From Mesorhizobium sp. SARCC-RB16n (GTDB taxonomy: Bacteria; Pseudomonadota; Alphaproteobacteria; Rhizobiales; Rhizobiaceae), in assembly GCF_008520305.1 (NCBI RefSeq), contig NZ_ML703256.1:182815-246814 (forward strand): a DNA stretch of 64,000 bases, read 5' to 3'. The number at the start of each line of letters is the position of its first letter. The stretch's first letter is position 1. The notes under the pieces are model-generated. The model was not told the origin of the DNA, made no database searches, and was given only the letters and a program-made list of their open reading frames with translations. The position numbers and the translations under genes were made by a program. Below, piece by piece: positions 7,812 through 23,729 of the stretch.

Positions 7812-8504
7812 TTAAGAGTGTAGCGGCGCGGCTCGCGCATGGTCGTCAACGACAAACACGGCGCTCGCTTCGCTGACGATGGACACGTGTTCCCTGGCGG
7901 CTTTGCCGGCAGCAGCGCCATCGCCACGCAAGATCGCGGTGACGATGGCGTCATGCTCCTGCCAGGATTTCGCCAGGCGTCCGGCCAGCCGGAACTGGGC
8001 GCGGCGAAAGGGGGCCAGCCGGCTGCGCGTCGTCGCAGTCAACTCGTAGATGTGCGTGCTGTGGGCACCGCGATAGAGCCGGCTGTGGAATTCGGTGTTG
8101 AAGTACTCATAGTCTTCCTCGGCACCCAGCCGCACCAGCCGCGCCGACGCCTGATGCTCGGTCTCGAGCGCGCGGCGCTCGTTGCCGGTCATGCGCTCGG
8201 CGCAGAAGCGCGCGCATATGCCTTCCAGCTCGGCCATGCTTTCGAACATCGAGGCGAGGTGCTCCTGCGTGACGACGGCGACGATGGCGCCCCTGTTGGG
8301 CCGCCGCTCGACGAGGCCCATGGCGCTGAGTTGGCCAAGCGCCTCGCGCACCGGCGTGCGTGAAACCTCGAAGCGGGCGGCAAGCGAGACCTCGTCGAGT
8401 TTTTCGCCGGGACGCAGCACGCCGGTGACGATGCGGTCGCCGATCGCCCTCACCATCTGATCGACGGTCGTGCCCGCCCGGATCAAGCTGCGCTTTCCCG
8501 ACAA
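7812..8504 (-). CDS. GntR-family regulator, FCD subfamily
   Basis: 230 residues. The N-terminal winged helix (about residues 15-80) contains LAARFEVSRTPVREALGQLSA, the GntR recognition helix. The C-terminal all-alpha FCD ligand domain follows, with the metal-type Asp/His residues in EYFNTEFHSRLYRGA. The start is a TTG at 8504 with GGAGG ten bases upstream; no ATG gives a full domain. It is divergent from the biuret operon across a 294-base region holding inverted TGCATGC elements, so it most likely controls that operon. Ligand unknown; an intermediate of ureide breakdown would be logical. Confidence 0.88.
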   Translation of the reverse strand: MSGKRSLIRAGTTVDQMVRAIGDRIVTGVLRPGEKLDEVSLAARFEVSRTPVREALGQLSAMGLVERRPNRGAIVAVVTQEHLASMFESMAELEGICARFCAERMTGNERRALETEHQASARLVRLGAEEDYEYFNTEFHSRLYRGAHSTHIYELTATTRSRLAPFRRAQFRLAGRLAKSWQEHDAIVTAILRGDGAAAGKAAREHVSIVSEASAVFVVDDHARAAPLHS

Positions 8505-8639
8505 AACTGCTTCGCCTCCCCTGCTTCGGTGTTCCAGGATCCCTGAATCCTGCGGCCGAACGGCACCATCCCGACTCGGCCGGACCCTCTATGCCTGTGT
8601 TTTAATCTGCCTGTCAAATTGTCTGTTTTCAAGGCAAAA

Positions 8640-8670
8640 AGTGCATGCAATTGCCTTTCGCTTGTGCATG
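8640..8670. promoter_or_regulatory. upstream operator candidate (TGCATGC repeats)
   Basis: AGTGCATGCAA at 8640-8650 is the exact inverse of TTGCATGCACT at 8731-8741. A third GTGCATG lies at 8664-8670, in direct orientation 23 bases after the first. The spread is consistent with a regulator bound at two sites with looping, or with an activator site upstream of the sigma-54-type promoter. The binding protein is inferred to be the adjacent GntR. Confidence 0.5.
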
Positions 8671-8718: not shown

Positions 8719-8735
8719 TTGGCATGACGATTGCA
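8719..8735 (+). promoter_or_regulatory. sigma-54-type (-24/-12) promoter
   Basis: TTGGCATGACGATTGCA has the invariant GG and GC spaced by ten bases (GG 8721-8722, GC 8733-8734) and differs from the TTGGCACG-N4-TTGCA consensus at one position. It faces the biuret operon, with about 65 bases from the -12 element to the first ATG. RpoN control would fit a nitrogen-scavenging operon. Confidence 0.65.
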
Positions 8736-8741
8736 TGCACT
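8731..8741. promoter_or_regulatory. downstream operator candidate overlapping the -12 element
   Basis: TTGCATGCACT, the exact inverse of 8640-8650, shares its first five bases with the -12 part of the sigma-54-type promoter. A protein bound here would block promoter recognition, so repression is the likelier outcome. Confidence 0.5.
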
Positions 8742-8798
8742 TTTCTTGAGAGGGCGTTAACCGACCCGGAAAGGGTCCTACAGGGGAGCATAAGAGAG

Positions 8799-9926
8799 AT
8801 GACCGACAGATTCATGCTTAGCCGTCGCCAGTTGCTCAAGACCTCCGCCGCTGGAGCAGCATTAGGGCTTGCCTCCGCAGCCTTTCCCGTCAGCAAGGCA
8901 TTCGCCGCTGCCGCCACCGTCGGCTTCATCTATGTCGGGCCGAAGGACGACTACGGGTACAACCAGGCGCATGCCGAGGGTGCCGCAGCGTTGAAGGGCA
9001 TCGAGGGTATCACCGTCGTCGAGGAGGAGAACGTGCCGGAGACGGTCGATGTCCAGAAGACGATGGAATCGATGATCAACCTCGACGGCGCCTCGCTAAT
9101 CTTCCCGACCTCGTTCGGCTATTTCGATCCGCACATGCTGGCCATGTGCAAGAAGTTCCCCGACGTCCAGTTCCGCCATTGCGGCGGCATGTGGGACAAG
9201 ACCAAGCATCCGATGAACGCCGGTTCCTATTTTGGTTACATCGGCATGGGCCAGTATCTCAACGGCGTCGTCGCCGGCCACACCTCGAAGACCAAGAAGC
9301 TCGGTTTCGTCGCGGCCAAACCCATTCCGCAAGTGCTGCTTAACATCAACTCCTTCCTGCTCGGCGCGCGTTCGGTCGATCCGGCCATCACCTGCCAGGT
9401 CATCTTCACGGGCGAGTGGTCGCTGGCGGTCAAGGAGGCGGAAGCAACCAACGCCCTGGTCGACCAGGGCGCCGATGTCATCACCTGCCATGTCGACAGC
9501 CCGAAAGTGGTGGTCGAGACGGCGGCCGGACGCGGAGCCTTCGTCTGCGGCTACCACGCCAACCAGAGCCCGCTGGCGCCCGAGAAATACCTGACCGGCG
9601 CCGAATGGAACTGGGCCAAGGTCTACAAGATGTTCGTCGACGACCTGGTCGCCGGCACGCCGCTGCCCAACTTCACCCGCGGCGGACTGGCCGACGGCTT
9701 CGTCAAGATGAGCCCGCTCGGCCCCGCCGTCGGCGAGGCGGCGCACAAGCAGTTCGATGCCACGCTGGCCGAAATGATGAAGGGCGGTTTCTCCGTCATC
9801 AAGGGCCCGCTGAAGAGCAACAAGGGCGCTGTCGTCGCCACTGAGGGCCAGGCGTTCCCGGAAACCGCGATCGAGCTTGAAAGCATGGACTATCTGGTCG
9901 AGGGCGTCGTCGGCTCGACCGCCTGA
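8799..9926 (+). CDS. BMP-family substrate-binding protein, Tat-exported
   Basis: 375 residues. The N-terminus has SRRQLLKTSAAG followed by a hydrophobic stretch ending near SKAFA, a twin-arginine signal peptide, so it is exported folded to the periplasm. The mature part begins TVGFIYVGPKDDYGYNQAH, the usual opening of BMP/Med-family (PnrA-like) binding proteins. I chose the ATG at 8799, placed behind GGGGAGCATAAGAGAG; the upstream in-frame ATG at 8724 falls inside the promoter. It is the first gene of the operon ending with allophanate hydrolase, so the ligand is probably triuret, biuret or a related ureide. Confidence 0.9.
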   Translation: MTDRFMLSRRQLLKTSAAGAALGLASAAFPVSKAFAAAATVGFIYVGPKDDYGYNQAHAEGAAALKGIEGITVVEEENVPETVDVQKTMESMINLDGASLIFPTSFGYFDPHMLAMCKKFPDVQFRHCGGMWDKTKHPMNAGSYFGYIGMGQYLNGVVAGHTSKTKKLGFVAAKPIPQVLLNINSFLLGARSVDPAITCQVIFTGEWSLAVKEAEATNALVDQGADVITCHVDSPKVVVETAAGRGAFVCGYHANQSPLAPEKYLTGAEWNWAKVYKMFVDDLVAGTPLPNFTRGGLADGFVKMSPLGPAVGEAAHKQFDATLAEMMKGGFSVIKGPLKSNKGAVVATEGQAFPETAIELESMDYLVEGVVGSTA

Positions 9927-9944
9927 TCTGAGGGGGATGGGGCG

Positions 9945-11087
9945 ATGACGGATACGGTGACAGGGGCCGGCATGCCGACGCTGTTAGGCGCCAGGGGCTA
10001 TCCGGCGGCGCTGGAATGGATCGCGCGGCGGGCAGAGACGTTCGTCATTCCGCTCGCGGCGCTGATCGTCGGCATGGCGCTGTTCAGCCTGTTCATCGCC
10101 CTGGTCGGCAAGTCGCCGGTCCTGCTCTACGAGACCATGTGGCGCGGCGGCTTCGGCTCGTGGTTCTCGATCCAGAACTCGCTGTCGCGGGCCGCACCGC
10201 TGTTGCTGGCGGCGCTTTGCGTGGCATTGCCGGCGCGGCTGGGCCTCGTCGTCATCGGCGGCGAGGGCGCGATCGTGCTCGGCGGCGTCGGTGCCGCGGC
10301 CATCGGCGTGGCGCTCAGCGGCGCGCCTTCCTTCATCGTCATTCTTGCCATGGGCGTGGCGGGCATGGCCGCCGGCGGCATCTGGATCGGTGCCGTCGGC
10401 GCGCTACGCCACTACCGGGCCGTGAACGAAACGATCTCCAGCCTGCTGATGGCCTACATCGCCATCGCGCTGATGAACCAGCTGGTGGAAGGGCCGCTGC
10501 GCGATCCGGCCTCGCTCAACAAGCCGTCGACCCAGCCGTTGGCGGACATCTACCGCATCGGCAATATTCCGGGCATGGACGTGCATTGGGGACTGGTTGT
10601 CGGCGTCGTCGCCTGCATCCTCTCTTGGGTGGTCATCGAAAAGACCCGCTGGGGCTTTGCCGCGCGCATCGCCGGCGGCAATGTGCGGGCAGCGCAAGTG
10701 CAAGGGCTGGCCGTCGGACCACTTATCGTCGGGTTCACCGCACTTGCCGGCGGCTTCGCGGGGCTGGCGGGCATGCTGGAAGTCGCCGCCGTGCAAGGCA
10801 GCGCCAACGCCTCGCTCGCCGCCGGCTACGGTTACACCGGCATTCTCGTGGCCTTCCTCGCCCGCCACAATCCGCTGGCCATCATTCCGGTCGCTATCCT
10901 GCTTGGCGGCATCGATGCCTCGGGCGGGCTGATCCAGCGCCGCATGGACCTGCCCGACGCCACCGTTCTGGTGCTGCAGGGCATGATCTTCATCGTCATC
11001 CTGTTCAGCGAAACCCTTTACGGCCGCTTCAAGGCCTTCAATCCCGATCTTTGGAAGAGGCCCGATCTCTCGAGGGGGACTGCCTGA
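9945..11087 (+). CDS. BMP-type ABC transporter permease (ureide operon)
   Basis: 380 residues, the longer permease of the importer. After about 30 polar residues it is polytopic, with the loop motif NETISSLLMAYIAIALMNQ in the middle and conserved glycine-rich segments near the C-terminus. It starts 18 bases after the binding-protein stop, behind a GAGGGGGATGGGGCG stretch. Its stop overlaps the start of the next permease by one base, so the two are translationally coupled. Confidence 0.9.
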   Translation: MTDTVTGAGMPTLLGARGYPAALEWIARRAETFVIPLAALIVGMALFSLFIALVGKSPVLLYETMWRGGFGSWFSIQNSLSRAAPLLLAALCVALPARLGLVVIGGEGAIVLGGVGAAAIGVALSGAPSFIVILAMGVAGMAAGGIWIGAVGALRHYRAVNETISSLLMAYIAIALMNQLVEGPLRDPASLNKPSTQPLADIYRIGNIPGMDVHWGLVVGVVACILSWVVIEKTRWGFAARIAGGNVRAAQVQGLAVGPLIVGFTALAGGFAGLAGMLEVAAVQGSANASLAAGYGYTGILVAFLARHNPLAIIPVAILLGGIDASGGLIQRRMDLPDATVLVLQGMIFIVILFSETLYGRFKAFNPDLWKRPDLSRGTA

Positions 11088-12013
11088 TGGACGCGACCGA
11101 GGTCGGGCTCTGGGGCGTGCCTCTGGCCATTCTGGGCGGCGCCATCCGCGTCTCGACGCCCTTCATCTTCGTCTCGCTGGGCGAGGCGATCACCGAGCGT
11201 TCCGGCCGCATTAATCTCGGGCTCGAAGGCACGCTCGTCTTCGGCGCCATGGCGGCCTATGCGGTCGCGGTGATGACCAACTCGCCCTGGCTCGGCCTGA
11301 TCGCCGCCGCCGGCGCGGGCCTGTGCTTCGGCCTGTTCCATGGCTGGATCTGCAAATTCCCGAAGGTCAACGACATCGCCATCGGCATCGCGCTGATGCT
11401 GTTCGGCTCAGGTCTCGCCTTCTTCTTCGGCAAGCCGTTCATCAAGCCGAAGGCGCCCAATCTGCCGGCCATTCCCTTCGGCGGCTGGTCCGACATTCCG
11501 CAGGTGCAGGCGGCGCTCGACGTGAACGTGCTGTTCCTCATCGGGGCGGTGCTGTCGGTCATCCTGTGGTGGGCGTTCCGCAACACGCGCGCCGGGCTGA
11601 TCGTGCGCGTCGTCGGCGACAGTTCGGACGCGGCCCGCGCCATGGGCCTCGACCCCGATACGGTGCGGCTGCTGGCCACCGGCGTTGGTGGTGCCCTGGC
11701 CGGCATCGGTGGCGCCTATCTGTCACTCTACTATCCTGGCAGCTGGACCGAACGCATTTCCTCGGGCCAGGGCCTGATGGCGGTGGCGCTGGTCATCTTC
11801 GCGCGCTGGAACCCGCTCGGCTGTTTTGCCGCCGCCCTTCTGTTCGGCGGGGCGGGCGCGCTCGGCCCGGCGCTGCAATCGGTCGGCGTGACGCAGGGCT
11901 ACTATCTGTTCTATGCCGCCCCCTATATCCTCACCCTCATCATCATGATCGCCACCTCGTCGCCGACACGCTCGCTTGCCGGTGCGCCGGGCGAACTGTC
12001 GATCACAAAATGA
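11087..12013 (+). CDS. BMP-type ABC transporter permease 2 (ureide operon)
   Basis: 308 residues, the shorter permease, with [19 protein letters not shown] near residue 30, the signature block of this subunit, and [13 protein letters not shown] later. I chose the start at 11087 because it overlaps the previous stop (TGATG) behind CGAGGGGGAC; the longer open frame upstream is a shadow of the preceding permease. It forms the membrane channel with the 9945 product. Confidence 0.9.
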
Positions 12014-12027
12014 CTGGAGTTTTGCCT

Positions 12028-12729
12028 GTGAACGCCAGAGCCGAAATCACCCAGCACACGATCGACGCAGAGCCCTATCCGTGGCCCTACAATGGCGATC
12101 TGCGGCCCGACAACACGGCGCTGATCATCATCGACATGCAGACCGATTTCTGCGGGCCGGGCGGCTATGTCGACCATATGGGCTACGACCTGTCGCTGGT
12201 GCGGGCGCCGATCGAACCGATCAAGGCCGTGCTCTCGGTGATGCGGGCCAAGGGCTACACCATCATCCACACGCGCGAGGGACATCGGCCCGATCTCGCC
12301 GACCTACCGGCCAACAAGCGCTGGCGCTCGCGCCGCATCAATGCCGGCATCGGCGACCCAGGTCCGTGCGGGCGCATCCTGGTGCGCGGCGAGCCGGGCT
12401 GGGACATCATCCCCGACCTCTATCCGATCGAGGGCGAGCCGATAATCGACAAGCCGGGCAAGGGCTCGTTCTGCGCCACCGACCTGGAACTGATCCTCAA
12501 CCAGCGCGGGATCGAAAACATCGTGCTCACCGGTATCACCACGGATGTCTGCGTGCACACCACCATGCGCGAGGCCAATGACCGCGGCTATGAATGCATG
12601 ATGCTGGAGGATTGCTGCGGGGCGACCGACCACGGCAACCATATGGCGGCGATCAAGATGATCAAGATGCAGGGCGGCGTCTTCGGCACTGTGTCGAATT
12701 CGAAGGCGCTCGTCGCGCAGCTGCCGTGA
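12028..12729 (+). CDS. biuH: biuret hydrolase (cysteine hydrolase, isochorismatase-like)
   Basis: 233 residues. Converts biuret to allophanate and ammonia. The sequence follows my memory of the crystallised Rhizobium leguminosarum BiuH closely, and the Asp-Lys-Cys triad falls at the same numbers (D36 in [12 protein letters not shown]142 in [11 protein letters not shown]175 in TTDVCVHTT) if translation begins at the GTG at 12028. That GTG has GGAG eight bases upstream; the in-frame ATG at 12010 has none. The product, allophanate, is the substrate of the enzyme encoded at 15277, which supports the call. Confidence 0.93.
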
Positions 12730-12739
12730 GGAGGGCGCT

Positions 12740-14269
12740 ATGAGTGGCAGCGTCAGAAAGGCCGTCGGCGTCGAAACCATCGGCATGACCATGCGCTTCG
12801 GCGGCTTCACGGCGCTGGACGCCGTATCGGTGAAGGTGTCGGCAGGTTCCTTCCACGCGCTGCTCGGCGAGAACGGCGCCGGCAAGTCGACGCTGGTCAA
12901 GTGCATGATGGGTTTTTATCACCCGACCTCCGGCGACATTTTGGTCGACGGCCGGGAGGTCAAGATTGCCAGCCCCAGGGATGCCTCGGCGCTAGGGCTC
13001 GGCATGGTCTACCAGCATTTCACGCTGGTGCCGTCGCTGACCGGAGCGGAGAACCTCGTCATCTCGCGCGAAAAGGTGCCCGGCATCGTCGACTGGCGCA
13101 AGGAGCGGGGCGATCTTGCCGTATTCATGGAGCGCATGCCGTTCAAGCTGCCGCTGGACGTCAAGGTGGCGGAGCTTGCCGCCGGCGAGAAGCAAAAGCT
13201 CGAAATCATCAAACAGCTCTATCTCGGCCGCTCCTTCCTGGTGCTGGACGAACCGACTTCGGTGCTGACGCCGGGCGAAGCGCAGGAGGTGCTGGGGCTG
13301 GTCCGCGCCATGACCAAGGCGGGTGACCTCACCGTGCTGATGATCTCGCACAAGTTCCATGAGGTGACCGCCTTCGCCGACGATGTCAGCGTGCTGCGCA
13401 AGGGCAAGCTTACCGGGACCGGCCGCGTCGCCGATCTCGACCACAAGGCGATGGCGGCGATGATGGTCGGAGACCAGCCGATCGCCGCGCTCGACAGTCG
13501 CGCAACGCCGAAGCCCGATGCTGAGATTGTGCTCAATGTCAGATCGCTGAAGGCGCCGGACCGCACCGGTCTGAAGTCGATCAGCATCCTGGACCTCGGC
13601 GTGCGCTCGGGTGAGATCGTCGGCATCGCCGGCATTTCGGGCAACGGTCAGAAGGAATTCCTGGAAGTTTTGGCCGGCCAACGGCCGCGCGAGGCCGGCG
13701 AGGTGCTGGTGCGTGGCTTAGCCTATGCGGCGACGCGCGCCGAGGCGCGGGCGCTCAATGTGCGCCTCATTCCCGAGGAACCGCTGAAGAATGCCTGCGC
13801 GCCGAAAATGACGGTGGCCGAAAACATCTCCTTCCGCACCTTCGACATGGATGGCAATGGCAGGCCGGTGAACTGGATTAGCGCCAGCGCCATTCGCGCC
13901 TTCGGCGCCCGCCTGGTCGAGCAGTTCAAGGTCAAGACCGCCTCGCTGTCCTCGCCCATCGCCTCGCTGTCGGGCGGCAATGTGCAGCGCGCGGTGCTGG
14001 CGCGCGAGCTGACCGGCGAAGTCGACCTGCTGATCGTCTCCAATCCTTGCTTCGGCCTCGATTTCTCGGCGGTGGCCGAAACCCGCGCTCGCATCATGAA
14101 GGCGCGCAACGCGGGTGCGGCCGTGCTGTTGATGTCGGAAGACCTCGACGAGCTCTTGGAATTGTCCGACCGCATTTTCGTCATGTCGGACGGCGCGCTG
14201 GTCTATGAGACGCCGATCGCCGGGGCGAGCGTACAGACCATCGGCGAGCATATGGCGGGACATCACTGA
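12740..14269 (+). CDS. BMP-type ABC transporter ATP-binding protein (ureide operon)
   Basis: 509 residues with two tandem nucleotide-binding domains. Domain 1 has a good Walker A (GENGAGKST) and Walker B (FLVLDEPTS), with the signature reading LAAGEKQK. Domain 2 has the usual loose Walker A of this group (GISGNGQKE) and signature LSGGNVQR, but its Walker B reads LLIVSNPCFGLD, without the catalytic acidic residue. This suggests one active ATP site. It lies between the two cysteine hydrolase genes and overlaps the second by one base, so transporter and hydrolases are intermixed in one operon. Confidence 0.9.
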   Translation: MSGSVRKAVGVETIGMTMRFGGFTALDAVSVKVSAGSFHALLGENGAGKSTLVKCMMGFYHPTSGDILVDGREVKIASPRDASALGLGMVYQHFTLVPSLTGAENLVISREKVPGIVDWRKERGDLAVFMERMPFKLPLDVKVAELAAGEKQKLEIIKQLYLGRSFLVLDEPTSVLTPGEAQEVLGLVRAMTKAGDLTVLMISHKFHEVTAFADDVSVLRKGKLTGTGRVADLDHKAMAAMMVGDQPIAALDSRATPKPDAEIVLNVRSLKAPDRTGLKSISILDLGVRSGEIVGIAGISGNGQKEFLEVLAGQRPREAGEVLVRGLAYAATRAEARALNVRLIPEEPLKNACAPKMTVAENISFRTFDMDGNGRPVNWISASAIRAFGARLVEQFKVKTASLSSPIASLSGGNVQRAVLARELTGEVDLLIVSNPCFGLDFSAVAETRARIMKARNAGAAVLLMSEDLDELLELSDRIFVMSDGALVYETPIAGASVQTIGEHMAGHH

Positions 14270-14937
14270 TGGCGCAAATCGACGCGCAGCCGTTCGCCTT
14301 TGCGTTCAAGCCCGACACGATGGCGCTGGTCGTCATCGACATGCAGCGCGATTTCGCCGAGCCCGGCGGCTTTGGCGCCAGCCTCGGCAACGATGTCAGC
14401 CGCATCCAGGCGATCGTGCCGACAGTGAAGAGGCTGATCGAGGGGTTCCGCGCCGCCGGCGTGCCTGTGATCCACACGATGGAGTGCCACCGCGCCGACC
14501 TCTCCGACCTGCCGCCGGCCAAGCGCAACCGCGGCAATCCGTCGATCCGTATCGGCGATGTCGGGCCGATGGGTCGCGTGCTGATATCGGGCGAGCCGGG
14601 CACCGCGATCATCGCCGAACTGGCGCCGCTGCCGGGCGAGATCGTCATCGAGAAGCCGGGCAAGGGCGCCTTCTACGCGACCAGATTCGGTGACGATCTG
14701 AAGCGGCTTGGCGCGCAGCAGCTGGTTTTCGCCGGCGTCACCACCGAAGTCTGCGTGCAGACGACGATGCGCGAGGCTAACGATCGCGGCTATGAGTGCC
14801 TGCTCGCCGAAGATGCGACGGAAAGCTATTTCCCCGAGTTCAAGGCAGCGGCCATCGCCATGATCCGCGCCCAAGGTGCCATTGTCGGCTGGACGGCGAC
14901 GACCGACCGGGTGCTGCAGGGAATCGCGAATGGTTAA
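14269..14937 (+). CDS. second cysteine hydrolase, triuret hydrolase candidate
   Basis: 222 residues of the isochorismatase-like cysteine hydrolase family, with triad D24 (VVIDMQRDF), K129 (IEKPGKGAF) and C162 (TTEVCVQTT). It is clearly related to the BiuH at 12028, sharing the HRADLSDLPPAKR and [13 protein letters not shown] blocks, yet differs widely elsewhere, so it is not a recent duplicate. I recall that triuret hydrolase TrtA is a BiuH relative whose product decarboxylates to biuret, and that its gene clusters with biuH and atzF. That is the basis for the candidate call; specificity cannot be proved from sequence. It overlaps the ATPase gene by one base and the cupin by eight. Confidence 0.72.
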   Translation: MAQIDAQPFAFAFKPDTMALVVIDMQRDFAEPGGFGASLGNDVSRIQAIVPTVKRLIEGFRAAGVPVIHTMECHRADLSDLPPAKRNRGNPSIRIGDVGPMGRVLISGEPGTAIIAELAPLPGEIVIEKPGKGAFYATRFGDDLKRLGAQQLVFAGVTTEVCVQTTMREANDRGYECLLAEDATESYFPEFKAAAIAMIRAQGAIVGWTATTDRVLQGIANG

Positions 14938-15280
14938 TCTGAGTTTTGCCGGCCTCGTCGGTGCCGGCTGGCGCGACCTGGCGTTCGAGCCTTTTCGCGA
15001 CGGTATCACAGTTCACTGGCTGTTGAAGGGCGGACCGGTGGAACCCTCGGTCGCGATCCTCAATTACCGGCCCGGCGCCGGCGTGCCCCGCCATCGCCAT
15101 GTCGGACTGGAAACCATCGTCGTGCTCGAGGGCACACAGAGCGACGAGAACGGCGATTATCCGGCCGGCAGCGTTATCTTGAACCCGGCCGGGACCGAGC
15201 ATTCGGTGTGGACGAAGGACGGCTGCGTCGTGCTGATCCAGTGGGACCTGCCGGTAATTATTCTGGGGGAGGCCATATGA
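14930..15280 (+). CDS. small cupin-domain protein
   Basis: 116 residues, a single beta-barrel cupin. PGAGVPRHRHVGLETIVVLEG holds the metal-type histidines and glutamate of cupin motif 1, and NPAGTEHSVW those of motif 2, resembling ChrR-like cupins. It overlaps the genes on both sides (8 bases upstream, ATGA downstream), so it is tightly built into the ureide operon. Its role is unknown: a sensor, a minor hydrolase or an auxiliary of allophanate breakdown are all possible. Confidence 0.82.
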   Translation: MVNLSFAGLVGAGWRDLAFEPFRDGITVHWLLKGGPVEPSVAILNYRPGAGVPRHRHVGLETIVVLEGTQSDENGDYPAGSVILNPAGTEHSVWTKDGCVVLIQWDLPVIILGEAI

Positions 15281-17127
15281 GCGAGATCCGCTTCGATATC
15301 ATCAGCCTGCACGCGGCCTATGCCGGCGGTGTGACTGTCGCGGATATGATTGATGCGGCGCATGCCCGTATCGTGGCGGCTGACGATCCCGGCATCTTCA
15401 TCCATCTCGCCGGAAGGGAGGAGATGCTGGCGCAGTCGCAAAAGCTTGGACCGTTCGATCCGGTTGCCAAGCCGCTGTGGGGCGTGCCGTTCGCGGTCAA
15501 GGACAACATCGATGTCGCCGGCATGCCAACGACGGCAGCCTGCGCCGAATATGCCTATATGCCGGAGAAGGACGCCACGGTGGTCGCCCGGTTGAAGGCC
15601 GCCGGCGCGCTGGTGGTGGGCAAAACCAATCTCGACCAGTTCGCCACCGGCCTCGTCGGTGTCCGCACGCCTTACCCGATCCCAAGGAACGCCGTCGATG
15701 CCAGTCTCGTGCCGGGCGGCTCCTCGTCCGGGTCGGCGGTGGCGACGGCGCGGGGCATTGTCTCCTTCGCGCTGGGCACCGACACGGCCGGCTCCGGCCG
15801 TATCCCCGCCGGCCTCAACAACATCGTCGGGCTCAAGCCGACCGTCGGCGCGCTCTCGGCCGCCGGCGTGGTGCCAGCCTGCCGCACACTTGACTGCGTC
15901 TCCGTGTTCGCACTCACCGTTGACGACGCCTATGCGGTGTTCGGCGTCGCGGCGGCGGAGGACCCGGCCGACGCCTATTCGCGCGCGATCAACGCGCCGG
16001 CGCTTGCCGCGCGGCCACCGGTGCTGAGCGTCGGGGTGCCGGCGAAGAGCGACCTGAAGTTCTTCGACGACGCCTCGATGCCGGCCGGCTTCGAGGCAGC
16101 ACTTGGCCTTCTGGAAACGCTCGGCTGCCGGCTGGTCGAAATTCCGTTCGGCGATTTCTACGCCACCGCCAATCTTCTCTACGAAGGCGCCTGGGTCGCC
16201 GAGCGCTACGCGGCGATCGGCGACTTCATGGACGCCAACGAGGCCGCCATGCATCCGGTGACGCGCAAGATCATCGGCGGCGCCAGAAGTCTGTCGGCGG
16301 CGGACGCCTTTCGCGGCCTCTATGCCTTGCAGGCCTACAAGGCGAAGCTCGCCCCGGTCGTCGCCTCGGTCGACCTCTTCTGCGTGCCGACCGCGCCGAC
16401 GCATTACACTACAGCCGCGGTGCTCGCCGATCCGGTCGCGACCAACAGCCGGCTTGGCACCTACACCAACTTCGTCAACCTGCTCGATATGTGCGGCATC
16501 GCCGTGCCGACTGGCAGGCGCAGAGACGGTCTGCCGATGAGCGTCACCTTGCTGGCGCCCGCTGGCCGCGATGCGCTGACGACAATGCTCGCCCGGGACC
16601 TGCATGGGCAGAGCGGCCTCCCACTCGGCGCAACGGGCTGGCCGCAGCCCGGCCCGCGGCCGGCCGCCGTGCGGCCCTGCGATGGCATGATCGACCTGGT
16701 GGTCGTCGGTGCGCATCTGTCGGGCATGCCGCTCAACGGCCAGCTCAACCAGCTCGGCGCGCAATTCCTGCGAGCGACCAGGACCGCCGCCGCTTACAAG
16801 CTCTATGCGTTGGCCGGCCAGTCCGTGCCCAAGCCCGGCCTGATCCGCGTTGCCGACGGCGGCATGCGGATCGACGTCGAGGTCTGGCGACTTGGGCCGG
16901 AGGCCTTCGGCCATTTCGTCGCCGCTATTCCGGCTCCGCTCGGCATCGGCACGGTCGAACTTGAGGACGGCACCCCTGCCAAGGGCTTTCTGGTCGAAAG
17001 CGCGGGCTTGGACGGTGCCTCCGACATCTCCTCATTCGGCGGCTGGCGCCGCTTTGTCGCGTGCGGCAAAGACATGGCCGATCAAAGTGAAAAGCGGCAG
17101 AACTGGCCCGCTGGCGTCCCGATCTGA
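15277..17127 (+). CDS. atzF: allophanate hydrolase
   Basis: 616 residues, the usual full length with an amidase-signature domain plus a C-terminal domain. Splits allophanate into two ammonia and two carbon dioxide. The Ser-cisSer-Lys triad is visible: K75 (PFAVKDN), S149 (VPGGSSSGSA) and S173 (TDTAGSGRIPA). The 24-residue spacing of the serines matches Pseudomonas AtzF as I recall it. TPTxGxxSxxGVxPACxTLD, typical of allophanate rather than general amidases, is present. The start overlaps the cupin stop (ATGA) behind GGGGGAGGCC. It is the last gene of the operon. Confidence 0.94.
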   Translation: MSEIRFDIISLHAAYAGGVTVADMIDAAHARIVAADDPGIFIHLAGREEMLAQSQKLGPFDPVAKPLWGVPFAVKDNIDVAGMPTTAACAEYAYMPEKDATVVARLKAAGALVVGKTNLDQFATGLVGVRTPYPIPRNAVDASLVPGGSSSGSAVATARGIVSFALGTDTAGSGRIPAGLNNIVGLKPTVGALSAAGVVPACRTLDCVSVFALTVDDAYAVFGVAAAEDPADAYSRAINAPALAARPPVLSVGVPAKSDLKFFDDASMPAGFEAALGLLETLGCRLVEIPFGDFYATANLLYEGAWVAERYAAIGDFMDANEAAMHPVTRKIIGGARSLSAADAFRGLYALQAYKAKLAPVVASVDLFCVPTAPTHYTTAAVLADPVATNSRLGTYTNFVNLLDMCGIAVPTGRRRDGLPMSVTLLAPAGRDALTTMLARDLHGQSGLPLGATGWPQPGPRPAAVRPCDGMIDLVVVGAHLSGMPLNGQLNQLGAQFLRATRTAAAYKLYALAGQSVPKPGLIRVADGGMRIDVEVWRLGPEAFGHFVAAIPAPLGIGTVELEDGTPAKGFLVESAGLDGASDISSFGGWRRFVACGKDMADQSEKRQNWPAGVPI

Positions 17128-17266: not shown

Positions 17267-18007
17267 TCAAAATTTCGGGTTGGCTGCCCGCCAGGCCTCA
17301 TACTCATCGTTCGCACTTGGATGCAGCGGATAATAGCGTTGCAACGGCCCGCCCTCCATCAGCTTCATGCGTGAGAACTCCTCCCAGTCGTGATGCTTCT
17401 GTGATTCCTCGATCACCTTCGCGGCCATCGCGACGGGAAGCACGACCACCCCGTCGTCGTCGGCGACGATGATGTCGCCGGGGATCACCGTGACACCGCC
17501 GCAGGCGATCGGAACGTTGACGGCGTTGGGATAGATGCTGGTTTGCACATGGTAGTTGGGCGTCCAGCCGCGCAGCCATAGGGCCAGATCGAGCTTTTCG
17601 ACATTGGGCCGATCGCGCATGCACCCGTCGATGACGATACCCGCGCCGCCTCTGCCTTTGAAGTACGTCGACATCATATCGCCGAAGACGCCCGAACTCA
17701 TGTCGCCGCGCGCGTCGACCACCACCACATCGCCCTCTTGCGCGTGGTAGAGCACGTGCCGGTGCAGCTGCTTCTCCGGATCGGCATACTCTCCCTCGGT
17801 GAAGAGGTCCGGCCGCTGTGGCATGAACTGCAGCGTCAGCGCCGGCCCGACGATCGACTTGCCGTGGTTCTGGGCCACCGGGCCGACCATGTGCGGATTG
17901 CGGAAGCCCATATGGCCAAGCGTGCCGGCAACCGTCGCGGCGCCGATCCCCTTCAGCGCGTCAATCAGATCCTTGGGCGGCCGCGTGATGTCGGAAATAT
18001 GCGTCAT
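17267..18007 (-). CDS. RraA/HMG-aldolase-like family protein
   Basis: 246 residues. Holds the family core GAGIVIDGCMRDRPNVEKLDL, where the Arg-Asp pair is the catalytic pair in 4-hydroxy-4-methyl-2-oxoglutarate aldolases, and IPGDIIVADDDGVVVLP near residue 180. Proteins of this family in sugar-acid operons are often mislabelled RNase E regulators; here an aldolase or decarboxylase acting on a keto-acid is more likely. The start at 18007 is the ATG giving the normal family N-terminus. It is the last gene of the minus-strand ABC/enolase operon, 22 bases after the previous gene. Confidence 0.85.
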   Translation of the reverse strand: MTHISDITRPPKDLIDALKGIGAATVAGTLGHMGFRNPHMVGPVAQNHGKSIVGPALTLQFMPQRPDLFTEGEYADPEKQLHRHVLYHAQEGDVVVVDARGDMSSGVFGDMMSTYFKGRGGAGIVIDGCMRDRPNVEKLDLALWLRGWTPNYHVQTSIYPNAVNVPIACGGVTVIPGDIIVADDDGVVVLPVAMAAKVIEESQKHHDWEEFSRMKLMEGGPLQRYYPLHPSANDEYEAWRAANPKF

Positions 18008-18029
18008 TGTGGACTCCGATTGAAGGGAA

Positions 18030-19193
18030 CTACCAGTTCGTGACAGAACCATCGCGGCGCTTGAGGTGGGGCGCTTCCCAGAAACGGAAGCTTTGCGCCT
18101 GGACCGCCTCTTCGTTGACCTCGACGCCGAGCCCCGGCAGATCGCTGACGGGATAATCGGAGCCGTCGAGCCGTGGTTGCACCGGAAAGAATTCGGAATT
18201 GTCGAAGCCCAGCTCTGCTTCGGGCGCCCTGGTCTCGAGCCACGAAAAGTTTGGTACCGCGGCGGCGAGATGCACGGTCGCGGCCGTGCACACCGGGCCA
18301 AGCGGATTGTGTGGCATCAGGTCCACATAGTGCGCCTCGCTCCAACCGGCGACTTTCATCGCTTCCGTGAAGCCGCCGACATTGCAGATATCGAGCCGGT
18401 TGAACTGGTGGATACCGCGCTCGATATAGGGCAGAAACTGCCACTTGCTGGCAAATTCCTCGCCGATGGCGAAGGGGATGTCGGTCATCTTGCGCAGGGA
18501 TTCGTAGGCTTCCGGCGTCTCGTCGCGTATCGGCTCCTCGAGGAAATCGAGCACGCCGCGGTCGAGCTTGCTGCAGAAGCTCGCCGCCTCCGCCACCGAT
18601 AGCCGATGGTGATAATCGATGCCGAGGACGACCTCGTCGCCCAGCGCCCGGCGCGCCTTGTTCAGCATCGTCGCTGTAGCGCCGATCGACTCGCGCGGCT
18701 CGAAGACATCCTTGCTGTTTTGCCCGACGGGAAAGAAGCGGATTGCCTGCCAGCCCTGTGCGTGCAGTTCGCGGGCCCGTTCGATGGCCACGTCGCCCTC
18801 GGCCTCGTCTCCGGTCGAGGCGAAAGTGGGGATCCGGTCGCGCTGCTTGCCGCCCAGCAGCTCGTAGACCGGTATCCCCAGCGCCTTGCCCTTGATGTCG
18901 TGAAGGGCGATGTCGATGGCTGATATCGCCGCCTGCAGAACGCGCCCGCCTTCGAAATACTGGCTGCGGTAAACCTCCTGCCAGATCCGCCCGGTCTGCA
19001 TGGGGTCGCGGCCGACGAGAAACTCGCGATAGTGCTCGACCGCGCCGGCCACGGCCTTCTCGCGGCCGCTCAGGCCGCTCTCGCCCCAGCCGAAGATGCC
19101 GTGGTCGGTCTCGACCTTGACCAGCATCTGGTTGCGCGTTCCCACCCACACCGGATAGGGCTTGATCGCGGTGATCTTAAGCTTCGTAGTCAT
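18030..19193 (-). CDS. enolase-superfamily dehydratase (mandelate racemase/galactonate dehydratase type)
   Basis: 387 residues. The N-terminal capping domain opens KITAIKPYPVW, then follows the barrel domain. Metal ligands can be read as Asp in VLGIDYHHRLS, Glu in FLEEPIRDE and Glu in FAIGEEF, with the general acid/base His in LMPHNPLGP. The DYHH and MPHNPLGP pattern resembles D-galactonate dehydratases, so an acid-sugar dehydratase is likely; the exact substrate is unknown. Two starts are possible, ATG 19193 (chosen, gives the normal N-terminus) or ATG 19214 (seven residues longer). Confidence 0.88.
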   Translation of the reverse strand: MTTKLKITAIKPYPVWVGTRNQMLVKVETDHGIFGWGESGLSGREKAVAGAVEHYREFLVGRDPMQTGRIWQEVYRSQYFEGGRVLQAAISAIDIALHDIKGKALGIPVYELLGGKQRDRIPTFASTGDEAEGDVAIERARELHAQGWQAIRFFPVGQNSKDVFEPRESIGATATMLNKARRALGDEVVLGIDYHHRLSVAEAASFCSKLDRGVLDFLEEPIRDETPEAYESLRKMTDIPFAIGEEFASKWQFLPYIERGIHQFNRLDICNVGGFTEAMKVAGWSEAHYVDLMPHNPLGPVCTAATVHLAAAVPNFSWLETRAPEAELGFDNSEFFPVQPRLDGSDYPVSDLPGLGVEVNEEAVQAQSFRFWEAPHLKRRDGSVTNW

Positions 19194-19222
19194 CCACCCA
19201 CGTTCCACACGCATCCGCCCGC

Positions 19223-20320
19223 TCAGCTGGCCTCGAGGGCCATTTCGGTTTCGCCGTCGAACAGATGCATCCGCTCCTGGTCGAACTCGAGCCAGATCCG
19301 CTCGTCGGGCGTCACCGCAATGTTCGGTGGCACGCTGACGTTGACGATGGCACCGGAGAGAAACGCCTGCACGAAGGTGACGTCTCCGGTTGGCTCCACC
19401 GTGTAGACCTTGGCCGGGATGCTGCCCGGCACGGCACTCTTGTGCAGCTTGATCGTCGAGTGGCGTGCGCCGAGCACGATCTTTTTGGTCGTTGCCTTCG
19501 TGACCTTCTGGACGTTGCGCGGCGAGAGCCCGAGGCTCCAGCCCTCCGCGCTGGTCAACACGGTGCCGCCGTTTGCTGTCGATATCTCCAGCGGAATGAG
19601 GCTCATCGCCGGACTGCCGATGAAGCTGGCGACGAACATGTTCACCGGATGGGCAAAGACCTGTGCCGGTGAATCGTATTGCTGCAGGAAGCCGCCGTTC
19701 ATCACCGCCATCTTGTCGGCCATGGTCACGGCTTCGAGCTGGTCGTGTGTCACATAGATGATCGTCGCCTTGAGGTCCTGGTGGAATCGCTTGATCTCCG
19801 ACCGCATCTGCACGCGCAGTTTGGCGTCGAGGTTGGAGAGCGGCTCGTCCATGAGAAACACGGCGGGGTCGCGTACAAGGGCGCGGCCCAGGGCGACGCG
19901 CTGCTGCTGGCCGCCCGAAAGTTCGCGCGGCTTGCGCTCGAGCAGGTGCGTCATGTCAAGCACCCGCGCCGCTTCCTTGACCTTCTTGTCGATCTCGTCC
20001 CTGGGCAGTCTGCGCATCTGCAACGGGAAAGCGAGATTCATATAGACCGACTTTTGCGGATAGAGCGCGTAGTTCTGGAACACCATTGCGATGTCCCTGT
20101 CCTTGGGGTCGAGGTCGTTGACCACCCGGTCCCCAATGACGATGTCGCCCGATGTGATCGAGGTCAGCCCCGCGACGAGATTGAGCGTGGTTGTCTTGCC
20201 GCAGCCTGAAGGGCCGACGAGCGCAACGAACTCGCCATCATTCACCGTCAGCGAAACGTCGTTGACGGCTTTGAAGCTGCCATAGGTCTTGACGAGATCT
20301 TTGAGGACCACGTGGGCCAT
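19223..20320 (-). CDS. sugar ABC transporter ATP-binding protein (UgpC/MalK type)
   Basis: 365 residues. Walker [11 protein letters not shown]-loop VFQNYALYP, signature [15 protein letters not shown] and Walker [17 protein letters not shown] are all intact. The C-terminal third is the TOBE/OB domain usual in CUT1 importers. GGAG lies six bases before the ATG. Ten bases separate it from the permease upstream, so it belongs to the operon starting at 23729. Confidence 0.94.
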
Positions 20321-20330
20321 CGGCAACTCC

Positions 20331-21221
20331 TTAATGCTTGACCGCGCCTTCTGTAAGGGCGCGTACGAAGTATCGTTGCAGGACGAGGAACAGCACCACG
20401 ACGGGCACGCTCATCATGAAGCTCGCCGCCATCAGGCCCGGAAAGTCCGTCGTATTTTCAGAGAAGAAGCGCTGGATGCCGACCGGCAGGGTCAACTGGT
20501 CGTTCTTGGACAGGAACGTGTAGGCGTAGATGTACTCGTTCCACGCGCCGATGAAGGAATAGATCGCCGTGGCGATGATTCCTGGCGTCGAGAGCGGCAT
20601 GACGATCATGATAAAGGCCTGGAACCGCGTTGCGCCGTCGATGCGCGCCGCCTGCTCGAGCTGCACCGGGATATTGTCGTAGAAGCCCTTGAGCAGCCAG
20701 ATCGCCAGGGGCAGGCCGAAAGTGAGATAGGTCAGGATCAGCGAGCCATGCGTGTTCACCAGCCCGATCGCGCGCATCAGGATGAAGAGCGGCACGAGAA
20801 AGATCACCGCCGGGAACATGTTGCGCAGCAGCACGGCGAAGAACAGGAAGTTCCGGCCTGGGAAAGTGAAGCGCGAAAATGCATAAGCCGCGGGAACAGC
20901 CACGATCACCGAAAGGATTGTCGTGGCGGTCGACACGAACAGGCTGTTCCAGAAGAAGCGCAGGAAGTCCTGGCCGACGCTATTCTGCGGATCGAGCAGC
21001 TTCCGGTAGCTGGCAAGCGTAGGCTCGTCAGGCCACCATTGCGGCGGGAATTGGGTCGCCGCGAAGCCCGACTTGATCGAGGTGATCAGCATCCAAATCA
21101 TCGGCACCGCTGTGTAGAGCAGCATCAACAAGAGGAAGATACGTCCGGCCCAGCGCCACCCGTCGACGCGCATGCTGCTACGGGTCTGGCGTCGAGAGCC
21201 GGTCTCGGCGATCGTGCTCAT
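20331..21221 (-). CDS. sugar ABC transporter permease (MalG type)
   Basis: 296 residues, about six membrane segments. The EAA loop reads EQAARIDGATRFQAFIMIVMPLSTPG, placing it in the CUT1 inner-membrane subunit family. The N-terminus is a short polar leader before the first hydrophobic helix. The start overlaps the end of the preceding permease gene by four bases (ATGA). Confidence 0.93.
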   Translation of the reverse strand: MSTIAETGSRRQTRSSMRVDGWRWAGRIFLLLMLLYTAVPMIWMLITSIKSGFAATQFPPQWWPDEPTLASYRKLLDPQNSVGQDFLRFFWNSLFVSTATTILSVIVAVPAAYAFSRFTFPGRNFLFFAVLLRNMFPAVIFLVPLFILMRAIGLVNTHGSLILTYLTFGLPLAIWLLKGFYDNIPVQLEQAARIDGATRFQAFIMIVMPLSTPGIIATAIYSFIGAWNEYIYAYTFLSKNDQLTLPVGIQRFFSENTTDFPGLMAASFMMSVPVVVLFLVLQRYFVRALTEGAVKH

Positions 21222-22177
21222 GCGCGCCCCTCTTTCCGCTCGTTGCCGCTCAGTGCACGAACGTAGAAGTAGCCCAGCGCCATCAGGATGAGGAACAGGA
21301 GCACCGAATAGGCGGATGCCACGCCCCAGCGTTGCCGGCCGAAAGCGAGTTCGTAAATGTGGGTTATCCAGATATGCGAGGCGTTCGACGGCCCGCCGCC
21401 AGTCATGATCCAGGGGATGATGAAGGAATTGAAGTTGGCCACCGCGAGCAGCAGGATCGTCACCACCGAGACGTTGCGTAAGTGCGGGAAGGTGACGTGC
21501 CAGAAGCGCTGCCATGCATTGGCCCCGTCGACTTTCGCGGCGCGCAACAACTGGTCGGGGACAGTCTGCAGGCCGGCCATCATCATGATCATGGCGAACG
21601 GAAACTCGCGCCAGATATTGACGACGATCAGGGAGGGAAGCACCGTGCTGACGTTGTCGATGAAATTCGGCGGCCGGTCGGCCAATCCGAGGCCGACCAG
21701 CACCGCGCCGATGATGCCGAAGTCCGAATGGTAGATCCACTTCCAGATGTAGGAGGCGGCGACCGCGCTGATGACCCAGGGAATGATCAGGATGGCGCGC
21801 AGGACGCCACGACCGACAAAGTCGCGGTGCAGCGCCAGCGCTGTGGCGAACCCCAGGACAAAGGAGATGAAAGTCGACCCAAATGTCCAGATCAGGGTGT
21901 TCCAGGTGACCTTCCAGAACACCTCGCTGGTGAGGATGGTCGTGTAGTTGTCGAAGCCGATGAAGGTCTTGTCACGCAGTTGCAGGCCAGGCGGCGTTTT
22001 ATAGAACGACAGCTCGACCGTGTAATAGATCGGATAGGCGATGACGATGAGCATCACGGCGATCGCGGGGAGCACGTATGCGTAGTCGGCGCGATGCGCC
22101 CAGATATTCCGCAGCATGCCGGACCTGCCGGGTTGCAATCTTCCGCGAGCCTCGGCCTTGCCGGTCACGATCGTCAC
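21218..22177 (-). CDS. sugar ABC transporter permease (MalF type)
   Basis: 319 residues, six or so membrane segments, with EAA loop LLRAAKVDGANAWQRFWHVTFPHLR near residue 215. Start taken as the GTG at 22177; an in-frame ATG at 22117 would cut 20 polar residues before the first helix, so the start is not certain. It follows the binding-protein gene after 73 bases. Confidence 0.92.
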   Translation of the reverse strand: MTIVTGKAEARGRLQPGRSGMLRNIWAHRADYAYVLPAIAVMLIVIAYPIYYTVELSFYKTPPGLQLRDKTFIGFDNYTTILTSEVFWKVTWNTLIWTFGSTFISFVLGFATALALHRDFVGRGVLRAILIIPWVISAVAASYIWKWIYHSDFGIIGAVLVGLGLADRPPNFIDNVSTVLPSLIVVNIWREFPFAMIMMMAGLQTVPDQLLRAAKVDGANAWQRFWHVTFPHLRNVSVVTILLLAVANFNSFIIPWIMTGGGPSNASHIWITHIYELAFGRQRWGVASAYSVLLFLILMALGYFYVRALSGNERKEGRA

Positions 22178-22250
22178 TGTGGCTGCCCTTGTTCTTCGGA
22201 AGGACCGGCTGCACTCTCGGCGTAGCCGGTGGATCGCAGGTCAGGTCGGA

Positions 22251-23729
22251 CTAGAGTCCGCCCATCAGGTCTTTCACCTTCTTGGCTGCGTCGTCCGCTG
22301 CCTGATCAACGGTCATCGCTCCGGTCAGGGCATTCTGCAGCATGTCCGGGATGATGATGTTCATGATCTCGGGAGACTCCGGCAGCGCCGGGAAGGGGAT
22401 GCCGTAGGGCAGCATCGATGTCGTGACGTCGAGGAACTTGATGTGGTCCAGACGTTCCTTCATCCATTTTGTCTTGAAGCCATTGAGGTTGCCGGGGTTC
22501 GAGCCGGCATAGGCCATCTTCAGTGACCATTCAGGGCTCGCCCACATGCAGATCATCGCCTTCGCGGCCGGCTCGTCCACCTTGCCGCCCTCTACATATT
22601 CGGGCTTCAGGATGTGAATGTTCGAGCCGCCGAACACGACGGCGCGCTTGCCGTCGGGACCAGTCGGAACCAGACCGTAGCGCATGTTGTCGATGACGGT
22701 CTGCGCCTTGTCCTTGTCGGTGCCGGTTGCCTTGGCCTGCAGGTCGAGCATCACGTTGTAGTCTGACGGGTGCGAGATCATCATGCCCAACTGTCCGGCG
22801 ACGAACAGAGGCTGGTTGTCGGCCTGCTGGTTGGTGAGTGCCGAAACCGGAACCGACTTGTCGCGGACATACATGTCGTATGAGGCTTGCAGCGCCGCCT
22901 TGCTCTGCGGGCTGTCGAGCTCCACCTCTTTATATGTCGGGTTCGCGGTGGCTTCGTCGAAGACGCCGCCGCCATAGGCCCACAACTGCGGCATGAAGCG
23001 ATAGGGCGTATTGCCGGCATTCTTGCGAGCCACGAGGCCGTAGCCGGCAATGCCGAGCTTGTCGTGTATCTGCTTGGAATACTTGACAACGTCGTCCCAC
23101 GTTGCCGGAGCCTTGTCCGGATCGAGGCCGGCACGCTTGAAGATGTCGGCATTCCAGATGAACGCCATCGTCTCATTGTTCGTCGGTACGCCGTAAGTCA
23201 CCCCATCCCAGGTTACGGCCTTCATGGCGCCCGGCCAGAAATCCTCGGTCGAATACCCCACATCCTCGGGTTTGAGCGGCTGCAGATAGCCCTTCGAGGC
23301 GAATTCGGTACCGCCGAGGATTTGCAAGCGCACCGCCATCGGTGCGGCATTGCCCAGGAGCGCCGTGCGGAACTTGTCGAGAAGATCGTTATAGGTGAGG
23401 GCTTGTTCCTCGAGCTGGATGTTCGGATAGGTCTTGCGGAAAGTCTCGAAGAAATCCTTGTAGTACTGGCGCAGGAGGTCGGGATCGCCCTCGAACACGC
23501 CCTGATACCAGAAAGTCAGTCGCCCCTTGTAATCGAGCGGGGTGACCTTGGCGCAATCGCCGGCCGTGTCGAAATCCTGTGTTCCCGCGATGGAGCGCAC
23601 ATATTCGGGCGACCACTTGCTCAGGTCGACCGGCGGCGCACCCAGCGCCGATGTCGACATAAGCGATGCAGCCAAGACACCGACGACAGTGCCACGCAGG
23701 ACCGCACTGCCGAGCATAATCCTCGTCAT
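22251..23729 (-). CDS. sugar ABC transporter substrate-binding protein
   Basis: 492 residues, longer than most CUT1 binding proteins. The signal peptide covers about the first 30 residues (cleavage after STSALG or close by), giving a periplasmic protein. The body shows the extracellular solute-binding family 1 pattern, with TFWYQGVFEGD near the start and NETMAFIWNADIFKRAGLDPDKAPATWDD in the middle. GGAGG lies five bases before the ATG. It is the first gene of the six-gene minus-strand operon, divergent from the GntR gene at 23913. Ligand unknown. Confidence 0.92.
   Translation of the reverse strand: MTRIMLGSAVLRGTVVGVLAASLMSTSALGAPPVDLSKWSPEYVRSIAGTQDFDTAGDCAKVTPLDYKGRLTFWYQGVFEGDPDLLRQYYKDFFETFRKTYPNIQLEEQALTYNDLLDKFRTALLGNAAPMAVRLQILGGTEFASKGYLQPLKPEDVGYSTEDFWPGAMKAVTWDGVTYGVPTNNETMAFIWNADIFKRAGLDPDKAPATWDDVVKYSKQIHDKLGIAGYGLVARKNAGNTPYRFMPQLWAYGGGVFDEATANPTYKEVELDSPQSKAALQASYDMYVRDKSVPVSALTNQQADNQPLFVAGQLGMMISHPSDYNVMLDLQAKATGTDKDKAQTVIDNMRYGLVPTGPDGKRAVVFGGSNIHILKPEYVEGGKVDEPAAKAMICMWASPEWSLKMAYAGSNPGNLNGFKTKWMKERLDHIKFLDVTTSMLPYGIPFPALPESPEIMNIIIPDMLQNALTGAMTVDQAADDAAKKVKDLMGGL

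Follow-up and report, generated by a model that had tools for sequence, protein, structure and literature searches.

What does an ATP-binding cassette (ABC) importer carry whose genes are interspersed with those of biuret and triuret hydrolases? This question is raised by positions 8719-17127 of a 64,000-nucleotide stretch from Mesorhizobium sp. SARCC-RB16n (contig NZ_ML703256.1), which as a whole is called the window in the following. Biuret and triuret are impurities of urea fertilisers, and triuret is also a possible natural product of purine oxidation (PMC7948467). The pathway enzymes have been known since a 2020 publication (PMC7948467), and PMC7700744 deals with the uptake of biuret by rice plants. 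Our search of the open-access literature, outside of which most subscription papers lie, found no bacterial importer of biuret or triuret that had been studied biochemically, in agreement with the original prediction for this locus, which had described such importers as not biochemically defined. Statements attributed to published work here refer to the accessible parts of the cited papers.

We propose that the span is one nitrogen-starvation operon that imports biuret (and triuret) and degrades both to ammonia and CO2, a reading to which we assign a probability of about 0.7. The operon as such is not new; the evidence on its importer is. This importer offers a sharp test, with one binding protein and few candidate ligands.

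An eight-gene operon with a path from triuret to ammonia

The features of the locus are as follows:

7812-8504, minus strand: GntR/FCD-family regulator (PF07729 and PF00392), divergent from the operon
8638-8651, minus strand: reverse-oriented upstream copy of the candidate GntR operator, AAAGTGCATGCAAT
8719-8735, plus strand: sigma-54-type –24/–12 promoter, TTGGCATGACGATTGCA
8730-8743, plus strand: candidate GntR operator ATTGCATGCACTTT (motif TTGCAT[GA]CA), overlapping the –12 element
8799-9926, plus strand: BMP-family (AtzT-type) periplasmic binding protein with Tat signal (PF02608), the proposed biuret (and triuret) receptor
9945-11087, plus strand: ABC permease 1 (BPD_transp_2)
11087-12013, plus strand: ABC permease 2 (BPD_transp_2)
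12010-12729, plus strand: biuret amidohydrolase BiuH (NF050097), isochorismatase-like, residues numbered from the GTG at 12028
12740-14269, plus strand: ABC importer ATPase with two tandem ATPase domains, as in sugar and nucleoside importers (PF00005)
14269-14937, plus strand: predicted triuret hydrolase TrtA, isochorismatase-like, with 13 of 13 diagnostic residues
14930-15280, plus strand: small cupin (Cupin_7) of 116 amino acids with an H-x-H-x3-E...H metal site, candidate carboxybiuret decarboxylase
15277-17127, plus strand: allophanate hydrolase AtzF with amidase and AH_C domains (TIGR02713, PRK08186, PF21986)

The eight genes between 8799 and 17127 are separated by 18, –1, –4, 10, –1, –8 and –4 bases, and the ATPase and trtA genes are located between biuH and the cupin gene. 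The span begins exactly at the sigma-54-like site and stops at the atzF stop codon. The best NCBIfam match of the ATPase covers residues 13-507 of 509. That these eight plus-strand genes form one operon had been predicted before, and gene positions, residues and families were all confirmed.

BiuH reaches 421.8 bits with NF050097, above the curated equivalog cut-off of 370, and is 85% identical to the solved BiuH of R. leguminosarum (6AZO). It carries the catalytic residues D36, K142 and C175 and the complete 12-residue signature (D36, F41, Y47, Y53, K142, K145, S147, D173, C175, T200, Q215, V218), a list taken from PMC7948467 and PMC5806882, in some cases through the alignment to TrtA in PMC7948467. 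The second hydrolase scores 238 bits with the same model, under its cut-off. Its best match among solved structures is Herbaspirillum TrtA (58% identity; 278.8 bits, compared with 194 for the best BiuH-type structure), and all 13 residues of the TrtA signature given in PMC7948467 are present (D24, F29, F35, N41, E72, K129, K132, A134, E160, C162, Y187, Q202, I205). Four of these, N41, E160, Y187 and I205, differ from BiuH and set the two enzymes apart. The assignment of this protein as another BiuH was dropped in view of its TrtA-type residues and this structural match, and residues and similarity predict TrtA activity for it, which is hydrolysis of triuret with hardly any action on biuret. 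AtzF exceeds the cut-offs of both TIGR02713 (800.5 bits versus 511) and PRK08186 (847.5 versus 487) and contains the Ser-cisSer-Lys triad K75/S149/S173 as well as the AH_C domain. The published path leads from triuret via carboxybiuret, biuret and allophanate to ammonia and CO2 (PMC7948467), and the closed enzyme path claimed by the original prediction is well supported by the family cut-offs and the residues specific for TrtA and BiuH.

The gene order recurs in relatives

To see how far this arrangement extends, loci were collected by a trtA-led scan with one genome per species, from which the best 80 of 570 confirmed loci were taken (L001-L080), and by the searches described below. The 80 loci are biased towards trtA, through which they were collected, and include many close relatives; some loci represent the same place twice (L063/L171, L174/L185 and probably L054/L135), and signatures were read off automatic alignments. 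The usual order in most loci with enough context is binding protein, permease 1, permease 2, (formamidase), biuH, (atzD), ATPase, trtA and cupin, often with atzF last and a divergent gntR first. The same core order was found in 104 core loci with enough sequence past the ATPase gene (window included, a few counted twice), a recurrence from which we conclude that the gene set is not due to chance. These loci contain trtA in 97 cases, the cupin gene in 79 and atzD in 18, and atzF lies inside the examined stretch in 66. An AmiF-type formamidase (NF009803) is located between permease 2 and biuH in 48 (e.g. L082:11098-12114); the window operon carries neither this gene nor atzD. The divergent gntR adjoins the Mesorhizobium and most Rhizobium loci and was not found in many Rhodobacterales loci.

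Recurring across relatives, the operon is of a known and widespread type. The TrtA-BiuH-AtzF pathway of Herbaspirillum sp. BH-1 and Rhizobium johnstonii (leguminosarum) 3841 has the same enzymes with the same diagnostic residues (PMC7948467). On pRL10 of R. johnstonii 3841 (L018), importer genes, biuH, ATPase, trtA and cupin are ordered as in the window, but this operon also holds an AmiF-type formamidase and atzD, whereas the window operon has atzF instead. The operons of both species are said to include AtzF (PMC7948467); we found no atzF in the 3841 locus within 10 kb on each side of trtA. In ammonia-oxidising bacteria, a biuH-trtA-trtB-atzF set for the same pathway is likewise co-located with a BMP-type ABC transporter, bmpA-nupABC, and comammox bacteria have a similar set, described without trtB in the accessible part of the 2025 report (PMC12625717). 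That report treats bmpA-nupABC as a nucleoside transporter; for the window importer we propose biuret.

The importer travels with biuH

We used the binding protein alone as tblastn query against 385 genomes belonging to the same class as the Mesorhizobium genome G001; apart from this centre genome, the resulting sample is free of the bias towards trtA. Matches at an E value of 1e-70 or better were obtained in 30 genomes. At 53% identity or higher there were 29 matches, and the 26 of these with more than 9 kb of downstream sequence were counted as loci. An intact BiuH-signature gene lies downstream on the same strand in 25 of the 26; in the remaining locus (L146), biuH is spread over two reading frames. 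By comparison, trtA is found within 20 of the 26 loci. Without G001, the counts are 25 of 25 for biuH and 19 of 25 for trtA. Three weaker matches (L161-L163, below 50% and at 41-45% in the genome search) showed no biuH within the 12 kb examined.

Since the importer travels with biuH, biuret is its most likely conserved cargo, and importers whose operon includes trtA would carry triuret as well. The "dedicated importer" of the original prediction is backed by this very tight linkage to biuH, while its ligand is inferred: biuret throughout, and probably also triuret in operons with trtA.

That triuret (or cyanuric acid) is the real cargo and biuret uptake incidental is, in our view, unlikely. 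Such a preference could explain trtA in 20 of the 26 loci and the insertion of atzD, the gene for cyanuric acid hydrolase, in 18 of the 104 core loci. However, six of the 26 operons (in genomes G174, G271, G129, G366, G303 and G381) contain biuH without trtA or atzD, and ammonia-oxidising archaea have biuH together with bmpA-nupABC, with no co-located atzF according to the accessible part of PMC12625717. Two further points against a triuret importer, concerning the pocket and a second transporter, are given below.

A binding protein of the AtzT fold with a different pocket

The translational start of the binding protein is most likely at 8799 rather than at the ATG further upstream (8724), because position 8719 opens the sigma-54 site TTGGCATGACGATTGCA. 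A Tat motif (SRRQLLK) is present, with a Tat profile score of 22, just below the cut-off of 22.7. The AlphaFold model has a mean confidence (pLDDT) of 89.8 and a template modelling (TM) score of 0.90 to AtzT (6pi5), at 37% identity. AtzT, encoded in the importer operon atzRSTUVW of Pseudomonas sp. ADP, is the closest solved binding protein and shares the Tat signal; it binds guanine (110 nM) and 2-hydroxyatrazine (2.2 µM) (PMC6834077), but its pocket residues differ from those of the window protein.

Using the ligand contacts of AtzT described in PMC6834077, we compared pocket positions 45-47, 97-99, 139, 165, 166, 169, 194, 218 and 220 (AtzT numbering) in 110 relatives that are at least 50% identical and include some near-duplicates. 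The pocket reads YNQSFGQQVNWHD in 99 of the 110, compared with YTYSFGTEVNWNN in AtzT; the other 11 are variants, one of which aligned only partly. The window protein has Gln47, Gln139, Gln165, His218 and Asp220 where AtzT has Tyr, Thr, Glu, Asn and Asn. The three glutamines differ from both purine binders, AtzT and 3s99, whereas His218 and Asp220 do not discriminate, because 3s99, modelled with adenine, also has both.

These differences bear on the annotation of such proteins as purine, nucleobase or nucleoside importers, under which the neighbouring enzymes would clear nitrogen-rich fragments of purines after uptake. The nearest structures fit this annotation, namely AtzT with guanine and 2-hydroxyatrazine, 3s99 with modelled adenine, and then nucleoside binders, and PMC12625717 names such genes ABC nucleoside transporter. 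We nevertheless regard it as improbable for the window importer. The AtzT guanine contacts Glu165, Asn218 and Asn220 are replaced by Gln, His and Asp, in a pattern common to the 99 relatives, and Tyr47, which follows the stacking Tyr45 of AtzT by two residues, is Gln. Profile searches of the operon genes with Pfam and NCBIfam matched no protein to a purine-degrading family, and the linkage to biuH extends to all 26 loci. The "nucleoside" BMP transporters next to biuH in ammonia oxidisers may therefore be misnamed.

With regard to triuret, the seven loci without trtA (the six operons above and L167, from the wider collection) fall into four pocket patterns, and loci with trtA share three of these. 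Whether trtA is present can thus not be clearly read from the pocket, which again argues against triuret as the real cargo.

The biuH-linked binding proteins are separated by a well-supported split from AtzT, 3s99, the second BMP protein of L153, and L161 and L163. A perfectly clean clade, our first test, was not obtained and the idea was dropped, as L162 falls inside. L161 (5014-6111) and L163 (5887-6981) encode a related BMP importer with a binding protein of about 41% identity, accompanied by a different isochorismatase-like hydrolase with the signature DFWIWKFADCT-L. They probably represent an importer-hydrolase pair for another ureide-like compound.

A sigma-54-type promoter overlapped by a putative operator

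The consensus of sigma-54 promoters is TGGCAYR-N4-TTGCW with GG/GC spacing, and the site at 8719-8735 matches it without mismatch. Among 101 regions upstream of the binding-protein gene, which are not independent cases because many of the loci are close relatives, 55 contain a perfect site and 17 a site with one mismatch (72 of 101). In shuffled sequences, one-mismatch sites occurred in 0.7% and perfect sites in none. The motif TTGCAT[GA]CA, picked after inspecting the sequences, is present at least once in 49 of 50 intergenic regions between divergent gntR and binding-protein genes and at least twice in 27, while two copies occurred in 0 of 1000 shuffles. In the window, this putative operator occurs across the –12 element (8730-8743) and, in inverted orientation, further upstream (8638-8651). 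The natural reading of this arrangement is that GntR is a candidate substrate-responsive repressor that would block the sigma-54 promoter at its –12 element. The operon can be likened to atzRSTUVW, which is sigma-54-dependent and nitrogen-controlled, serves a nitrogen-rich compound and is under the cyanuric acid-responsive AtzR (PMC6834077), whereas the neighbouring regulator in the window belongs to the GntR family.

Under the proposed mechanism, NtrC and sigma-54 would switch the operon on during nitrogen limitation, and GntR would release it once its effector is present. The importer would then capture biuret (and triuret). TrtA would convert triuret to carboxybiuret, which would yield biuret through the cupin protein or by spontaneous decay; BiuH would produce allophanate, from which AtzF would release ammonia and CO2. 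In the absence of an enzyme, carboxybiuret has a half-life of about 20 min (PMC7948467).

Several observations speak against this proposal. Linkage alone cannot separate triuret from biuret, because most operons also contain trtA. Our expectation of genomes that have the ABC importer but no triuret metabolism at all was mostly wrong: five of the six genomes with a trtA-less ABC operon carry a TrtA-type gene elsewhere, and in the sixth, G381, the only related protein lacks the TrtA signature. A biuH-led search of 369 genomes belonging to the same class as the Burkholderiales genome G003 found ten genomes with a BiuH-signature gene, of which six have it adjoining the ABC importer, three (G539, G651 and G640) adjoining an unclassified permease instead, and one (L173) near neither transporter. 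The pocket comparison uses a sequence alignment to AtzT rather than a docked structure, and outgroups share some of the residues (His218 and Asp220 in 3s99, Gln165 in L161 and L163, Gln47 in L162). Among solved structures, the nearest relatives are binders of guanine, adenine or nucleosides, and the diverged paralogue L162 (38%), which is not beside biuH, falls inside the binding-protein clade. Finally, 29 of the 101 upstream regions have no good sigma-54 site (two or more mismatches, or none).

The cupin protein

All 20 aligned homologues of the cupin protein retain its metal-site residues H55, H57, E61 and H91. Its confident structural model (pLDDT 94.2) resembles cupin domains of ChrR, small dioxygenases, DddK and KdgF. 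The gene is present in 78 of the 97 core loci with trtA and in one of the seven without; the latter, L167, comes from a genome carrying an unlinked trtA. Fisher's test gives p = 0.0007 for this association, although the loci were mostly collected via trtA and many are close kin, so that they are not independent. In the binding-protein-led sample, the cupin gene is found in 10 of 20 loci with trtA and in 0 of 6 without.

A role of the cupin protein in the decarboxylation of carboxybiuret is plausible. We also considered that it is not a pathway enzyme but a ChrR-like sensor or accessory protein, as its best matches in both sequence and fold are the cupin domains of the ChrR anti-sigma factors and as the gene is missing from 19 of the 97 core loci with trtA. 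This possibility deserves attention but is the less probable one, as the protein is a single cupin with no anti-sigma domain attached, none of its four metal-site residues varies among the aligned homologues, and in both samples the gene follows trtA. The name TrtB was considered and dropped, and the protein is kept as a candidate carboxybiuret decarboxylase.

A second transporter is linked to trtA

The most interesting part of the analysis, the contrast between two transporters, lies outside 8719-17127. Among the first seven genomes inspected for an unlinked trtA, three (G174, G271 and G628) have it next to a permease of about 525 amino acids. A crude hydropathy count gives about 11 membrane spans, and searches of Pfam, NCBIfam and PDB sequences left the protein unmatched; one hit to a domain of unknown function (E 0.61) and one to a PDB entry (E 0.85) look like noise. 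The following loci contain this permease:

L179:7780-9354, L180:8085-9671, L175:8461-10110, L164:5152-6684 and L165:4653-6191
L166:5921-7441 (minus strand), L190-L195 and L203-L212

With two members as queries against 754 genomes (369 and 385, from two classes), the permease was found at about 50% identity or more in 16 genomes; the search for neighbouring genes extended no further than about 1.5 kb. In 14 of the 16, the permease has a TrtA-type gene as its direct neighbour, and 13 of these 14 show N41, E160, Y187 and I205, while the remaining one (G640) is readable only up to an in-frame stop. In the two others, the permease itself is split over two matches (G563), or its match begins at query residue 147 and the neighbour is a BiuH-type gene (G331). 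Eight genomes with a distant homologue (40% identity or less) showed no TrtA-type neighbour within 1.5 kb.

An ABC binding protein of the AtzT-like, biuH-linked clade is missing in 13 of the 16 permease genomes, 11 of which have a TrtA-type gene beside the permease, a distribution that also argues against triuret as the real cargo of the ABC importer. Half of the 14 TrtA-permease genomes (G044, G047, G107, G192, G269, G288 and G482) lack both BiuH and such a binding protein; any further hydrolase matches in them reach 38-43% identity, and the match that was read, in G047, has no BiuH signature. In G539, G651 and G640, a trtA-permease-atzF-biuH-cupin cluster, with a different order in G640, occurs with no ABC importer of the window type. 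Where both transporters are present (G174, G271 and G628), trtA lies beside the permease and biuH beside the ABC importer.

We regard this permease as a candidate triuret transporter of an unclassified family. The simplest reading assigns biuret to the ABC importer and triuret to the permease; in operons with trtA but without the permease, the ABC importer would also serve triuret, or another carrier exists. We tentatively suggest, at slightly less than even odds, that two unrelated importers are dedicated to the pathway: an ABC importer for biuret with a re-tuned purine-binding protein, inherited with BiuH, and a permease of about 525 amino acids for triuret, inherited with TrtA. The contrast between the two predicts which transporter carries which compound.

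Some genes at these loci are broken. The BiuH-type gene beside the permease looks damaged in two genomes, at L215:1498-2175 (minus strand, G331), with Arg aligned at the catalytic Cys, and at L216:1498-2187 (minus strand, G251), with an in-frame stop. Others are trtA in G640, biuH in G353 (L146) and the permease in G563, all described above, and the binding-protein gene of G265 with one in-frame stop.

Related loci and neighbouring genes

A Klebsiella pneumoniae plasmid (L083, NZ_CP056374.1) carries atzF, binding protein, permeases, formamidase, biuH, ATPase, trtA and gntR between insertion sequences. The plasmid was typed as conjugative, and binding-protein matches of equal score occur on other Klebsiella and Enterobacter plasmids. 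The closest DNA in the plasmid collection to the part of the window used as query is a plasmid of Mesorhizobium sp. B1-1-8 (85.5% identity over 97% of this query).

At L184:3728-9583 (G652), TrtA is encoded together with AtzD, AtzE, the FAD subunit of a molybdenum hydroxylase and a weakly ureidoglycolate lyase-like protein, a set by which purines or cyanuric acid may naturally be converted to carboxybiuret. L181 and L183 encode hydrolases with the TrtA signature near oxamate carbamoyltransferase (All) genes, and a TrtA-type gene near oxamate carbamoyltransferase is likewise reported in comammox bacteria (PMC12625717).

In the window, positions 17267-23729 (minus strand) adjoin the operon with a sugar-type ABC importer, an enolase-superfamily enzyme and an RraA/aldolase-like protein, which looks like a separate cluster for sugar-acid catabolism.

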